64,000 nucleotides of DNA from Spinellus fusiger (taxonomy: Eukaryota > Mucoromycota > Mucoromycetes > Mucorales > Phycomycetaceae), in contig JALLLS010000006.1 of the NCBI GenBank assembly GCA_025094145.1, positions 1 to 64,000 of the forward strand, given 5' to 3'. Made by a program: the position numbers and the translations under genes. Within the stretch, counting starts at the first letter, position 1, and each line of letters begins with the position of its first letter. The notes under the pieces are model-generated. The model had not been told where the DNA came from, did no database searches, and was given only the letters and a program-made list of their open reading frames with translations. Shown one piece after another: positions 12,910-56,461 of this stretch.

Positions 12910-14126
12910 CACACCAGGAGATTAATCTGACCTTTAAGCGGTGATACTTCCTTCCTTTTACGAGAGTCCCAAATTTTGCCCTTTTATGGAATTGTATTTA
13001 AAATCAAAGGTTTGCACGTATCTAAATTATTATTTCCTTTTGTGGAGACTTCACTATCAAATTATATTATCAGTAAAATATATTGTTTATGAATAAAATT
13101 GTTTATTGTGATAATATAGCTAATACTATAGTATGACTATAGCTACTGCATAAGTGCATTCCCTCATAGCAATAGAATCCACAACCTAAAGGCCTTGTAC
13201 TTTATTCTTGGGAGATAGATAAATATGCTCAGGAGTATACCCTAGAGACCCTAGACAGTATTGGACCACCTGAGACTGATTTGATAAGAGTCTTTGCTTG
13301 CCTAATAACAATACAATGAGTATCTTGTGGAATACATTGAGCTCAAGTCCAGATGAAGACACTAATTACCTTTTTATCACTAGAATAGTCTTTGGTAGTG
13401 TTTATCACTCCTTTCTATTGTTTCTCTTTGTTAATAATGGCACAATACCTTGTTTAGTTATGCTCATCTTGACAAGTACTTAGGTGTCAAGTTGCATGTG
13501 CAGTGTGGAAAATAACAAGGGGAATATCAAAACAAATAATAGTTTCTCTTTCTCTATTCTGGTAAGGTTACACTAGCCTCTAATCATAAAATTTACAAGT
13601 CAAACAATTCACACTCTATTTGCCTTGGACCTAAAGCCCAGTATTAGAAACAATACTTTGTAATCATTAAGCACCACTGTTAATAACAGTTACAATAACA
13701 TAGTTACTGAAGTGATTATGAATATTGAGTCAATAAATGAATATACAGTTCTCAATGTAAGTGAGTTTGGTTCTATTTTATGGACAAAGATTACTAGAGT
13801 TAATTCAGTGTGTTCTATAATAAATCTTTCTTAAGCAGTGCTATACTGCAAATACTGTGGGGTTATGGATAACACATTATGCTAAACAATAAATGCAGTG
13901 ACTGAGTTGTCATTTTGGGGTGATTCTGGTTCTATCTCTTGACTTTGCAATTAAAAAGTATAAAATTGGCTGTAAAGTCAATAGTGGTTGCTAAAACAGG
14001 CAGGTAGAGTTTGAAATAGCTCATTTAGACAGCGAAAAGGCATTTTAAAACATATTAGCCAATCATATGAATATTGTGGTTTTATTCTCAAGATATTTCT
14101 TTATATATCCCAAAAATCTCCTGGTG
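12910..14126. mobile_element. Short TIR element, deletion copy of the Fanzor-bearing family
   Basis: A 1.2-kb non-coding element flanked by TA on both sides (12908-12909 and 14127-14128). Its ends are inverted repeats, CACACCAGGAGATT on the left and the reverse complement of CACCAGGAGATTTTT on the right. Internally it matches 20,300-21,700 nearly throughout, then jumps at a T-rich point (about 14,105) straight to the sequence found at 23,249. It therefore looks like the 20.3-23.3 kb element with its central 1.5 kb, including the Fanzor relic, deleted. TA flanks suggest a Tc1/mariner-type mobiliser. It has no open frame of note. Confidence 0.75.
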
Positions 14127-14128
14127 TA

Positions 14129-20054: not shown

Positions 20055-20293
20055 GTTATGTTGAGCTAGTAAGATCCATAGAAGAAGAAAGAACAGATGT
20101 CCTTATAACAGCAGGCACAGATAGCAGGCAGATGGACTTTTTTTTTATACTTCTTCCTTTATATTGTTGTTATTATTACTAGCAGTGTTCTCTCATATCT
20201 TTATTCTCTCATTCTCTCCATGTAAATATCCCCATTACTTTTTTATTTTTATCTTTATTTTTATTTTCTTATTTTTATACTTTTATTTTTCTG
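20055..20293. other. VPS72 3' region
   Basis: T-rich sequence between the VPS72 stop and the start of the next TIR element, with a TTTTTATTTTTAT-type low-complexity run at 20,235-20,290. Confidence 0.5.
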
Positions 20294-22324
20294 CACACCC
20301 AAAGATTTTCTGGCTTTTAAGCGGTGATAGATCCTTCCTTTTACGTAAAAGAATAATTCACCTTTTATGAAACTGTGTTTAAAATCAAAGGTTTGCAAGT
20401 ATCCAAATAATTGTTTCCTTTTGTGGATACTGTCGTAAAGACATTTTCTATAATTGGAACTACAACCCTTTTTGGAAATAACAACTCCTACTACTAAACT
20501 GAGAAGGGGATGCCATTGAATACTAAGGGATGATGATAGTTTGTAGTATTCAATAACATACCCCTGAAGCTAAATACTAGTAGTAGAAAAGTATAAAAGA
20601 CACAATTTTATGAAATAATAAACATCAGAGTTTAACTACCTGTTAACTGACAGGATTTCCTTTGGACTAACAAGCCATTGACGACAATACCTCAATATCA
20701 AATTGTATTATCAGTAAAATATACTGTTTATGAATAAAATTGTTTATTGTAATAATATAGCTAATACTATAGTATGACTATAGCTACTGCATAAGTGCAT
20801 TCCCTCATAGCAATAGAATCCACACCCTAAAAGCTTTGTGTTTTATCCTTAGGAGATAGATAACTATGCTTAGGAGTATAATCTAGATATTATTGACCTT
20901 GTAGAAGACCAACTGAGACTGATTTGTGAGTCTTTACTTAATAACAATACAATGAGTGTCTTGTGGAATACATTGAGCTCAAGCCCAAATGAAGACACTG
21001 CTTACTTATTTATCACTAGAATAGTCCTTAGTAGTGTCTATCACTTCCATCTATTGTTTCTCTTTGTTAATAATGGCACATTACCTTATTTAGTTATGCT
21101 CATCTTGACAAGTACTTGAGTGTTAAGTTGTATGCGCAATGTGTGAAATAATAAAAGGAGGGGAATATCAAAACAAATAATAGTTTCTCTTTCTCTATTC
21201 TGGTAAGGTTACACTAGCCTCTAATCATAAAATTTATAAGTCAAACAATTCACACTCTATTTGCCTTGAATCTAAAGGACAGTATTAGAAATAATACTTT
21301 GTTCCCGGAAAGTACTATTGTTAATACCAGTTACAATGAGACAGTTGAATAAATTATGAATATTCAGTCAATAAATGACTATACAATTCTTAATATAGTT
21401 GCATTTGGTTCTATTTTATGGACAATGACCATTAGAGTTAATTCAGTATGTCCTATAATAAATATTTCCCAAGCAGTGTTATGCTGCAAATACTGTGGGC
21501 TTATGGATAGCACATGTTAAACAATAAATACAGTGATTGAGTTGCAATGTCAAGTTTACTTCTTCCTTTTATCCAACTTTATAGTGTTTAATTACACAGT
21601 CCATAGTCAATGCTAAAACAGACAGACAGTGAAAATGTTCTTTTCAAATACATTGACCAACCAAAGAAATAGTGTGACTTTATTGTTCATATATTTCTTT
21701 TTTTTTACTATGAATTTGTCTAATTTGCTGTTCTCAAGCAATAGCTATGGCTTTTATAGAACATTCAAGAAGACTGGGAAGGGTAACTGTCCTGTCCTAT
21801 AGTGTGTATACTCTTGATCATGTATTTCAAGTCCATAGAATTCCAGAAAGTGATTTTATTGTAAAAGAAGAAAAAAAGGTTTCTCTCTTCCCTTGAAACA
21901 TACATAGGACAAGAAGAGGGAATCCATCTCTGAACTTACTGAGATGTTATTACCATATAGCTTTGATTCTTATAGCTTAAAAAGATATGTATATAAGTAG
22001 CTTCAAAATCCATACTATGTAACTTTGTAAAAATATATCTTTTATTCCGTAATAAAGGGCACTGCAGTTATCAACAAGACCACTAAAGAGATGAATCTGT
22101 AGTTGTTTGGTCTTTAGCAGGGACAACGAAATGGAGTATTAGTAAAAAGGCTAGTCTAGGGAAATCAAAGAGGGTACATGAACAGGAACACAACACACTA
22201 TTTGATCACAACGGGTAACTAGGCAACTGTTTTTTAAGCAATTCCTTTTCTTTTTTAAATGTTGTTGTAGTCTGCATTACTTTGGTAGTTCTGATTAAGC
22301 AAATGAGTTGTGAAAATTCGATTT

Positions 22325-22350
22325 GTTATCTTCTGTTCGGATATAAATAC
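22325..22350 (+). promoter_or_regulatory. Possible TATA box of the Fanzor gene
   Basis: GGATATAAATACC about 300 bp before the recognisable Fanzor coding sequence and inside the same TIR element. It could be the core promoter of the ancestral gene. Position only; no start site is known. Confidence 0.3.
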
Positions 22351-22635
22351 CTGCTAATTACACTGTCTGTTGCTCTTCATAACTTCTACCCTCTTTAACT
22401 TGTTTGTCTTTGCCTGGCATATAAACCAACAGTTGTGATCTGGTGAGTGTTTGTGTATGTTTATTATGTCTGACATGTTAGTCAGTTTCTATTGTATATT
22501 CTTTTATTTTAGTAAACTCAGTGAATCCGTTACAAAGGCAAAGGCAAGAATGTGCCAGTGCAAGGGTAATACGACACACACATAGATTACGTTGATACAT
22601 TTTGAACTAATTATTTTTAATATTATTTTATTATT

Positions 22636-23063
22636 GAAAAGGGGTATTGGCACCTAGAAAGATTGGAGTATGATCCTACCAATCTGCAAGTCGTTGCTTA
22701 TGACATAGGAATAAAGGTAAAAGATACTATCAAATTTAAAGGTCATGAAAATGGTTCGACAAGAATTTTATATCAATCATTAAAAAAAGAGACAAAAGGG
22801 TAAAGATCTTCTTGTGGTTGATGTCGATGAGTTCTTTACATCAAAGGTGAGCATGATTGACTTCTCACCCAATATAAAAAGCTCTTCTAACAGTTACTCT
22901 GTTTTATTTTGTTGTTCTCAAGATCTGCCACACTTATAACACAAACAACCTCACTAAAGTATTCATAGATTTCAACAATATCCACGCTTGCCAAAGTTGC
23001 GGAATTGTTTGGAACAGAGATGTGAATGCATCAAAGAATATCTATACAATTGCAGAAGAATAG
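22636..23063 (+). pseudogene. Fanzor (TnpB-like nuclease) C-terminal relic
   Basis: Fanzors are eukaryotic relatives of bacterial TnpB, RNA-guided DNA nucleases carried by transposons. The reading starts with YWHLERLEYDPTNLQVVAYD at about 22645, continues IKFKGHENGSTRILYQSLKK, needs a one-base shift at about 22800 (AAAAGGGTAAAG), then reads DLLVVDVDEFFTSK. A GT-AG intron (22847-22922) follows, then ICHTYNT, ACQSCGIVWNRDVNASKN and a TAG at 23061. This fits the Fanzor signature [TS][TS]xxC...CxxC...RD: TSKIC, CQSC, NRD. The second Cys of the first pair is Tyr. The N-terminal RuvC-I part is missing; only short possible exons occur upstream (22,380-22,560). Frameshift, missing Cys and truncation make it non-functional as read. 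Confidence 0.75.
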
Positions 23064-23371
23064 ATAGTTGTACTCATATTATATATCGCCACATCGAAAG
23101 TGGTTTCCTCTGGGATTCAGATATTTACAGGTAAATCTACATAACCTTTATTTGTTTAAAAACTAACATGAATACATTTTAATTTATTTTTGCTTTTTTT
23201 TCAAATCGACTTGTCATTTTTAAACAATTGTAGTTCGATTATTTCCTTTTATATCCTAAAGATTTCTTGGTGTGTAAAAGCGGAATGAACTATCCTTTTT
23301 AAACAGCGACCCACTACCATCATAATAAACAGTAGTTCCAGACTGTGCAGTGTTTCTTTTCTTGAGAGAGA

Positions 23372-46284: not shown

Positions 46285-46600
46285 CACACCAGGAGATTTT
46301 TCTGGCCTTTAATTAGTGACACAATCATCCCTTTATGTCCAATATTTTCTTGCCTTTTATAGAACTGTGTTTGAAATCAAAAGGTCTGCAGATATCTGTA
46401 ATATAGGGCACTGCGGTTATCAACAGGACTACCAGAGATGAATGTGTAGGTATTCGGTCTCTAACAGGGACAGCAAAACAGAGTTTAGACACAAACTTAG
46501 ATAACAGGAAAACCAAGGGGTACGGGAGCTGGGACACAACACACGATTTGAACACAACGGGTAACTAGGCAACTATTCTTTAAGCAATCCTTGCTTCTCT
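46285..46600 (+). mobile_element. Truncated copy of the Fanzor-bearing TIR family
   Basis: It begins TA-CACACCAGGAGATTTTTCTGG at 46283, continues about 115 bp of the left-end sequence, then jumps to the block that lies at 22,042-22,250 in the long copy (GGGCACTGC...GGGTAACTAGGCAACT). It lacks the 20,430-22,040 part and ends before any Fanzor coding sequence; no right end was found. Confidence 0.7.
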
Positions 46601-55040: not shown

Positions 55041-56461
55041 CACTATTTTCACTTATTATTGTCGCAATTTTGGAGAAAAATATGTCATTAATAAATTAAA
55101 ACTTGGCATAGTAAAAGATTTAAAGCTGGCGCATTCTAAGTACTTGAGGTTTTCTTACATTTTACTTTTCTTAAAAAAAAGGAATAACATTGTGCACGAA
55201 GACGGCCAAAGAAATATCTATAATGATGAAGGCATAGCCGTTACAGTGGTGGAGATGGAGGTAGACGAGGAGACGTACACCATTGAGACGGTTGCAAATT
55301 TCGGGATGTACCTTGACCTCAAACCACCTGAGAAGCCAGAAAGAAAAACTACACGACAATCCGTGGACAGAGATTTCAATACGGACGAGGACAAAAGAGC
55401 TCCTGGCATCCACAGGCACTACAAAGATTCTAAGAAAGAGCAGTTATTTGTGTTGATTTATGAAAGGGGTATGGGCGTCAGAGCTGCTGCACTGAAGCTT
55501 CAAATCAACCCTCTTTAGTCTTGGATCAAATGATGGAGAGTTTGACAACGTTTTTTTATTGATTTAGAGATATGGAAAACAGCTCTCTACAATTTCATCA
55601 CCAAAAATTGTAAGATCAGTCTAAAAAGAGCCATTTTCATTCAGTTGACCGTAATAGTCCTGAAAAGATCAAGGATCGAAAGGAGTGGGTACAGAAATGG
55701 ATGGAGACAGATATTGACTACATGAGCAACTGTGTCTTCATAGATGAGACGGCATTCCACATCAACATGAAGCGTACTTTTGCTTGGTCAAAAGTAGGTA
55801 CTCGTGCAGTAGTAAAAATACCAAGAACGAGGGCTAAAACAACAACCATCCTGGGAGCAACATCTGCTCAGGGCATTATCAACATAAAAGTAAGACGGCC
55901 TCGAATGTTGCCTGCTTCAAAGAAGAGAAGAACTGTTGGATCTAGTGGGCCTTCCCAGAAATAAAGCAAAGGCGCTGTTACTGGCCATTATATTAATTTC
56001 TTGACCGATACAATGGATGTCATGGACAATTTTCCAGATGTTTTCAAGGATAATTACTTGATTATGGACAACGCTCCTATCCACATGAATGAAGACATTA
56101 AAAGCTTCATTGAAGGCTGTGGGTACAGGTGTGTCTATCTTCTTCCTTACTCAGCAGAGTTGAATCCCATCGAGCAATTCTGGTCTGTTTGCAAAAGCAA
56201 GTTGAAAAGAGAAAGACTCTTGGAAGAAGAAACGCTATCATCTAGAATCGCCGATGCATCTAACCAAGTTCTTCTCAGTGATCTCAGATGATTTTGCAAA
56301 TACTCTGTCGATAGATTTGAGGATTGCTTACAAGAGAAGCCCTCTTTAACAATAAAGCATTTATGTCACATTTGTCGCATCCAACTTATACGCCATCTTT
56401 TAATTTATTAATGCGACAAGTTTTTTTTCCAAATGTGCGACAATAATAAATGAAAATAGTG
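55041..56461 (+). mobile_element. Second Tc1/IS630-type element, TA-flanked
   Basis: 1421 bp between TA at 55039-55040 and 56462-56463. Inverted ends: CACTATTTTCACTTATTATT left; CACTATTTTCATTTATTATT right (other strand), with GTCGCA motifs just inside. A stray end of the same kind (CACTATTTCC..., with repeated TGTCG motifs) lies at 54,945-55,000. The transposase inside is broken. Confidence 0.85.
55150..56291 (+). pseudogene. DD34E transposase, disrupted
   Basis: Three blocks. First, 55,190-55,518: acidic start, then RAPGIHRHYKDSKKEQLFVL and GMGVRAAALKLQINP (helix-turn-helix region), ended by TAG. Second, 55,701-55,964: NCVFIDETAFHINMKRTFAW (first Asp) and VGTRAVVKIPRTRAKTTTIL. Third, 56,001-56,291: YLIMDNAPIHMNEDIKSFIE (second Asp), then LLPYSAELNPIEQFWSVCKS (Glu). 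The second Asp to Glu spacing is 34 residues. This is the IS630/Tc1 DDE_3 type with FIDET..F and AELNPIE. At least two stops or frameshifts separate the blocks. Confidence 0.8.

Follow-up and report, generated by a model that had tools for sequence, protein, structure and literature searches.

Fanzors are eukaryotic RNA-guided nucleases and cousins of the CRISPR nucleases. Their fingerprints include a DPG motif in RuvC-I and a glutamate placed six residues before the zinc finger (PMC10711439, in part). The Spu-1 ghosts of Spizellomyces punctatus are many short copies that lie beside fewer Fanzor-bearing ones, with shared ends and conserved base(s) outside the left repeat; in SpuFz1 elements and their ghosts this is a CA, the TAM of SpuFz1 being CATA (PMC10432273, in part). 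The Fanzor1 genes of the CRe-1, CRe-2 and CRe-3 elements of Chlamydomonas are borne by Helitron2, with 3' ends over-represented, frequent internal deletions and a high copy number, and in the Mucorales the MuDR-like elements ROr-4, PBl-3 and MCi-4 carry Fanzor1 in terminal inverted repeat (TIR) elements that lack their own transposase and are bounded by 9-bp duplications (PMC3627910, in part).

Spinellus fusiger (Mucorales, Phycomycetaceae) is a mould living on mushrooms. We analysed a 64,000-nt stretch of its DNA (the window; C154:1-64000 in the 38.08-Mb, 197-contig assembly that was searched) and find there what we read, with a probability of about 0.88, as the decayed 3' end of a Fanzor1 gene, comprising three exons and two introns and carried as a passenger in a non-autonomous class II TIR/TA transposon. 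The evidence comprises motifs, intron signals, element ends, TA duplications, a large number of copies and, as a minority, relatives in the same genome that hold RuvC-I, each of which was observed directly. The relic is of a familiar type, in a species without a report in the literature searched: the open-access papers listed, judged by title, yielded no description of this family, and a few searches of the same literature found no report on the genome or transposable elements of this species.

With described Fanzor1 proteins the window copy and its family share the [TS][TS]xxC motif, zinc finger, RD, glutamate six residues before the finger, residence in a TIR element with TA, and kin with DPG (PMC3627910 and PMC10432273, both in part); unlike them, the window copy has the C-terminal part only, with a frameshift and one Cys lost, and some kin read DLG rather than DPG. 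The likeness to the Spu-1 ghosts lies in the many short copies beside fewer Fanzor-bearing ones, the shared ends and the conserved base(s) outside the left repeat, but the Spinellus copies keep C-terminal exons, measure about 0.9-3.0 kb and have shorter inverted repeats (~13 bp), and no omega RNA structure finds support in them (PMC10432273, in part). The CRe elements are alike in their abundant 3' ends, internal deletions and copy number, but they are 5'-truncated Helitrons, whereas both TIR ends are found in many copies of the Spinellus family; the three MuDR-like elements are from related fungi and differ in their 9-bp duplications, where the Spinellus element has TA (PMC3627910, in part).

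The features of the locus are listed below. P0001 is the hypothetical protein BDF14DRAFT_1710815, partial [Spinellus fusiger], 75% identical to the majority reading of the copies.

20291-20293, plus strand: left flank base C and a decayed TA duplication (C-TG; other copies read C-TA-CACACC)
20294-20430, plus strand: left end, with terminal inverted repeat CACACCCAAAGATTTTCTGG and subterminal part (blastn boundaries, end scans)
20431-20686, no strand assigned: 256-bp MITE-like insertion (uninterrupted site in other copies)
20687-22048, plus strand: left/middle module (sequence, blastn of loci)
22342-22349, plus strand: putative leader region, TATA-box-like TATAAATA (this and the next two rows are conjectural, read from the letters)
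after the TATA-like box to 22442, plus strand: possible leader exon
22443-22512, plus strand: intron-like stretch, GTGAGT...TTTTAG
22513-22565, plus strand: exon A remnant (..QRQRQECASAR), aligned with QRQEEGASAR of P0001
22566-22641, plus strand: intron 1, GTAATA...GAAAAG (P0001 joins both exons here)
22642-22846, plus strand: exon B, the region before the zinc ribbon, with RuvC-II (PF07282 match, family alignment)
22847-22922, plus strand: intron 2, GTGAGC...CTCAAG, 76 nt (sequence, family alignment)
22923-23063, plus strand: exon C, with zinc ribbon, RuvC-III and stop TAG (profile match, family alignment)
23064-23274, plus strand: 3' tail, then the right end (..TATATCCTAAAGATTTCTTGGTGTG), which repeats the left end in inverted form (blastn, end scans)
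23275-23276, plus strand: TA target duplication, right side (end scans)

An earlier note, made from the letters, had proposed a Fanzor C-terminal reading split by a GT-AG intron, and such a reading is indeed present. Spliced and carried through one frameshift, 22642-23063 gives a match to PF07282 (Cas12f1-like TNB, the family of the zinc ribbon of TnpB; E=2.6e-13), and exon C alone, with no joining, reaches E=6.5e-7, above the family cut-off. The majority reading of the copies matches PHROG 506 (transposase) at E=4.9e-12 and NCBIfam guided_TnpB at E=2.1e-8, the latter with 33.8 bits, below a model cut-off of 100 bits that is set for whole proteins. Judged by these profile scores, the reading is far above chance. 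PF07282 is the sole Pfam family above cut-off for the window reading, so that the profile check suggested with the proposal turned up no better unrelated zinc-ribbon match. An unrelated zinc-ribbon gene, or chance similarity, could draw on the sub-cut-off matches to Vps36-NZF-N (E=0.022) and Cohesin (E=0.0047); these other families are far weaker than PF07282, and the catalytic Glu and Asp fall at the matching positions of a 671-aa protein having DPG. Given also the guided_TnpB match and the relatives in Mucorales, we rejected this explanation, to which we attach next to no probability.

Exon B reads GYWHLERLEYDP...HENGSTRILYQSLKK, changes frame by 1 nt near the A-run at 22782-22788, and continues as KRQKGKDLLVVDVDEFFTSK, with the Fanzor-type RuvC-II Glu at 22829-22831, six residues before the zinc finger (VDE-FFTSKI-C), and Thr-Ser at 22838-22843. 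Across intron 2, whose splice signals are kept in the family (GT in 39/44 rows, AG in 43/44), the [TS][TS]-x-x-C motif is completed as TSKIC (Thr 22838, Ser 22841, Cys 22926). Exon C then reads ICHTYNTNNL...HACQSCGIVWNRDVNASKNIYTIAEE and a stop, about 15 C-terminal codons having been lost relative to the majority reading of the copies. The zinc positions hold Cys 22926, a Tyr replacing Cys at 22935, Cys 22989 and Cys 22998, so the window copy has no complete C4 finger; the RD that follows the finger is present in NRDVNASKN, with the RuvC-III Asp at 23019-23021. The RuvC-I motif DPG is absent. As read, the window copy cannot make a nuclease, because it has no RuvC-I Asp, carries a frameshift and has lost one zinc Cys; as a gene it is dead. 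The right boundary given in the earlier note, 23063, is correct for the gene, but the element itself reaches from 20294 to 23274, and exon A is an extra short exon upstream of the region that note covered; the relative of exon A in P0001 joins GHWHLKRLEYDP directly, in the same phase. The putative leader and intron at 22342-22512 stand at a place where other exons are found in P0001, and a spliced RNA might result. No in-frame ATG is found in the assumed leader plus exon A of the window, and an in-frame stop lies at their junction.

The assignment to Fanzor/TnpB made in that note is borne out, and a Fanzor rather than a bacterial TnpB is supported by the sequences, given the alternative RuvC-II Glu, kin with DPG, intron-like GT-AG gaps and nearest named relatives in Mucorales. 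These relatives, among the matches listed in a profile search (7997 scored, 191 of them matching with E no higher than 0.01, best 120 of the 191 listed), come from Rhizopus microsporus, Cokeromyces recurvatus, Mucor plumbeus and Thamnidium elegans. Further matches are unnamed proteins of up to 674 aa; one, P0038, reads AYDPG and VDEFRTSCRC..VWNRDVNAS, and from such motifs we would read these proteins as Fanzor1. PDB searches gave weak TnpB/Cas12 relatives at best, namely the TnpB-like L79 (9b0l, E=5.3e-4) and LaTranC (E=6.1e-4 with a profile that includes intron read-through of P0001 and is hence weaker, and 4.9e-4 in another search); no chain named Fanzor was matched in them. A fold of P0001 predicted from three sequences had a mean pLDDT of 32.7 and was unusable.

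The N-terminal half, described earlier as missing from the window copy, is indeed missing there, and RuvC-I exons lie elsewhere in the genome. The exons of P0001 itself are found on contig C13 at 96 and 98% identity, and we read the rest as match ends that probably run into introns. Its N-terminal part matches 51 listed stretches, of which 18 span the RuvC-I Asp. An intact, full-length Fanzor gene was not seen among the matches in this genome, where the RuvC-I places are known from exon and pattern matches. Nor did tblastn with P0001 find RuvC-I in the fetched loci among the matches listed. DPG is exact at C46:568090, and its pattern fits better at C127 and three places on C1; DLG is exact on C13, C164 and C179, and its pattern fits better on C68 and C140. 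Since a reversed DLG control pattern gave one match at up to three mismatches, places with three mismatches were counted only with a RuvC-I exon match, and C154:723864, a DPG-pattern place with three mismatches and no such exon match listed, was left out. DLG is probably a later change, because Thamnidium P0020 reads VCGLDPGR where P0001 reads LCGVDLGR. For the Fanzor1 pattern Asp-X(125-275)-[TS][TS], P0001 has 136 residues between Asp66 and Thr203, but TL in place of [TS][TS].

Exact left ends lie 0.7-1.1 kb upstream of three RuvC-I places on C1 (908098, 1102819 and 1160734). From C1:1102819 to an exact right end at 1105178 there is a TIR-to-TIR unit of ~2.36 kb that contains the RuvC-I exon, with stops in that exon, and an exact right end also follows the RuvC-I place on C68. 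Given such ends beside RuvC-I places, window-type copies would most simply be relatives whose N-terminal portion was lost within an element of this type.

That the relic sits in a TIR element, as first suggested from the window, was confirmed from fetched loci. The element is 2.98 kb long (20294-23274); its terminal inverted repeats are short, and its target duplications are TA. In blastn comparisons of 20 fetched loci, and of 50 loci, some overlapping, the shared repeat runs from ~20290 to 23279, and the element begins with CACACC at 20294 and closes with GGTGTG at 23274. In the best-kept copies the inverted ends read CACACCAGGAGAT on both sides, flanked by TA, and the inverted repeats are well matched over ~13 bp. 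The left/middle module, in which no long open frame was seen between 20687 and 22048, is deleted in many copies, frequently with a junction that joins 20403 to 22049. Every one of the 50 loci extends over the 3' portion of the Fanzor and the region of the right end (49-50 loci per sampled point from 22900 on), although this set was picked via Fanzor matches and the coverage is therefore not a free estimate. The MITE-like insertion has the ends TGTCGT...ACGACA and a 4-bp duplication, ATAC, at 20427-20430 and 20687-20690; it is private to the window copy among copies with matches across the place, and L022 and L024 show the uninterrupted site, GTGGATACCTCA. A relative of it, 74% identical, inverted and in a different place, occurs in L018 (1/50 loci).

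The copies of this transposon family number well above one hundred. A search with a 60-aa exon piece gave 150 scored matches of 428 candidates, and 147 of the 150 scored in a PF07282 genome search (457 candidates) were above cut-off. The genome holds 261 exact left ends and 185 exact right ends, but these patterns also fit Fanzor-less elements (e.g. L014:2135-3345), so that neither figure is a copy count. With TIRs, TA duplications and many copies, the element has the properties of a eukaryotic transposon, and the TA target duplication is that of Tc1/mariner elements. The open frames of five copies held no DDE/D transposase, and none was found tied to the inverted repeats of the element. When places matching DDE_3 (150 of 1544 candidates scored) were compared by eye with 166 listed of the 261 left ends, two lay at most 5 kb downstream on the same strand, by a rough estimate about as many as chance would give.

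Decay was a further part of the original proposal, and both lesions it named are in the window; neither is private to it. Across 44 aligned rows with exon B, which include the window and a few near-identical pairs, 25, the window included, have an exon B whose length is not divisible by three. Residues at the zinc finger were tallied in 48 rows, again with the window, of which 45 have letters at the second Cys and at the Glu: Tyr stands at the second Cys in 19/45 and Cys in 26/45, while the first, third and fourth Cys are kept in 47, 48 and 41 of 48 rows and the RuvC-III Asp in 46/48. The RuvC-II position holds Glu in 32/45 and Lys in 13/45 rows. RIP-like mutation was set aside as the cause of the shared Cys-to-Tyr and Glu-to-Lys changes, there being no strong CpA signature. 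C-to-T change at CpG is raised about twofold (0.168 and 0.137 vs 0.055-0.09 elsewhere).

Among 27 non-redundant full rows, diversity is 0.069 in exon A, 0.124 in exon B and 0.099 in exon C, against 0.085 in intron 1 and 0.117 in intron 2, and along the module it shows no sharp conserved core (0.07-0.16). The exons are thus not clearly less diverse than the introns, as expected of drifting copies, and we read this as drift. Third codon positions are more diverse than first and second ones (0.144 vs 0.104, permutation p=0.02, 44 rows), but noncoding phases differ as much as codon positions do (0.085 to 0.127); the excess is small and leaves room for a past or weak coding constraint on the C-terminal piece. 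That the fragment, a zinc ribbon with RuvC-III, is a working short protein, kept by selection because it regulates the element through DNA or RNA binding, is an idea we consider very improbable. It has in its favour, besides the third positions, that 10/44 rows give a stop-free spliced C-terminal reading and that L041 and L042 have their sole stop at the last codon, and that C-terminal-only proteins are annotated elsewhere (135 aa in Rhizopus microsporus, 195 aa in Mucor plumbeus). Against it, the other 32/44 rows have earlier stops or a lost frame, the exons are as variable as the introns, the window copy shows the missing ATG and the junction stop already described, and the short annotated proteins may be pieces of gene models. 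Three such Cas12f1-like TNB proteins, P0004 of Rhizopus microsporus, P0008 of Cokeromyces recurvatus and P0009 of Mucor plumbeus, are among the nearest relatives; compared by protein sequence, they have VDEF[RK]TS, the zinc finger and RD. Short Fanzor-like proteins of this C-terminal-only kind are annotated as genes in several Mucorales, and may be either gene-model pieces or similar relic families.

The common variants of the family are little linked. Over 92 sites in 44 rows, r2 is 0.215 at 1-10 bp, 0.052 at 11-30 bp and ~0.04 beyond, and all four variant combinations occur in about 94-96% of pairs (alignment of 22049-23280). A similar fall in linkage is seen in the Fanzor-less left module. 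Gene conversion or recurrent mutation, transitions included, may lie behind such unlinked variants, and we draw nothing from them for the Fanzor. The pairs L035/L036 and L041/L042 have nearly identical exons and different 3' tails, the right flanks of L035 and L036 differing too, and both pairs look as if their right halves had been exchanged.

A one-sided signature is found just outside the element. Of 261 exact left ends, 195 (75%) have C immediately before the TA, 21 have T and 45 have A or G, compared with a background of 19% C before TA (55,116 counts on both strands of the fetched DNA and window, overlapping loci included); the binomial tail is 1.7e-84 with copies treated as independent. 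After the right TA, G follows in 73/185 exact right ends (39%). Where scanned left ends have a Fanzor piece downstream, C is present in 22/28, and in 18/19 of those with an intact TACACACC. It is also present in 6/7 kept rows of Fanzor-less left ends, four further rows having been dropped as right ends or chance matches. One insertion is nested in another repeat; the majority of its related empty sites, which are 74-79% identical, carry C at the insertion point or beside it, in an alignment that is gapped.

A TAM leaves its conserved base beside the left end alone, and by analogy with SpuFz1 and its ghosts, where a CA stands outside the left repeat and the TAM is CATA (PMC10432273, in part), the Spinellus signature might be a fossil TAM, CTA. 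On this account the right end would encode an omega RNA scaffold with a guide taken from the right flank, and short copies would be guided and protected in trans by a full-length Fanzor. The asymmetry of the flanks fits, as does the C beside Fanzor-bearing ends; the C in the related empty sites points to the target and not to the element sequence, though the nested site is single and its alignment gapped; and the non-C ends, which are not mainly T, indicate something other than simply decayed C. Yet Fanzor-less left ends show the C likewise, the raised right side indicates that part of the signal is target preference, and the RNA itself gives no help: RNAalifold on 45 right-end rows returned -3.4 kcal/mol, with none of 15 weak pairs changed on both sides, and no Rfam match was found in the right end. 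The 3' tail at 23064-23274 is where the omega RNA would be expected, and a guide RNA in the right end is neither supported nor refuted. We regard this account as unlikely, and as more doubtful still a stronger form of it, in which the family would be a large swarm of guide-RNA-only copies that discarded the nuclease and kept the last exons for an overlapping guide RNA scaffold, a small number of full Fanzors would steer and repair these copies in trans, and a fossil TAM (CTA) would be left beside the left end genome-wide.

The same C could be mere target preference of an asymmetric transpososome, with the Fanzor fragment as inert baggage, and this comes near to an even chance. The C beside Fanzor-less elements and the mild enrichment of the mirror base on the right both speak for it; on the other side, Tc1/mariner insertion is not known to be one-sided to such a degree relative to element orientation. 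Because Fanzor-less left ends also show the C and the right side is raised too, plain target preference is likelier than a TAM fossil, although the data do not decide between them. The value of the find lies in its copy spectrum and this flank lead: few RuvC-I places, many C-terminal-only copies and a one-sided flank signature make a natural data set for asking whether RNA-guided cutting shapes the survival or location of copies.

On the whole, the family resembles a mostly non-autonomous derivative of a TIR element that carried Fanzor1. Under this main reading, an ancestral TIR element would have encoded a whole Fanzor1, from which internal deletion and rearrangement took away the N-terminal part. 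The short forms would then have been mobilised by a transposase acting in trans, for which the TA target suggests a Tc1/mariner type, and would since have drifted. The C-terminal piece may persist mainly as the neighbour of a right end needed by the transposase and perhaps once by the Fanzor guide RNA.

Other sequences of interest lie elsewhere in the window. A further left end (CTACACACCAGGAGATTTTTCTGG) is found at 46285, where no Fanzor piece was detected downstream and the window scan gave no right end. A Fanzor-less element of ~1.22 kb, at 12910-14128, resembles the relic's element in its ends (left CACACCAGGAGATT, right ..CCCAAAAATCTCCTGGTGTA). At 55995-56228 there is a match to DDE_3, a Tc1/mariner-type transposase family (E=1.8e-13), in an open frame of 225 aa.
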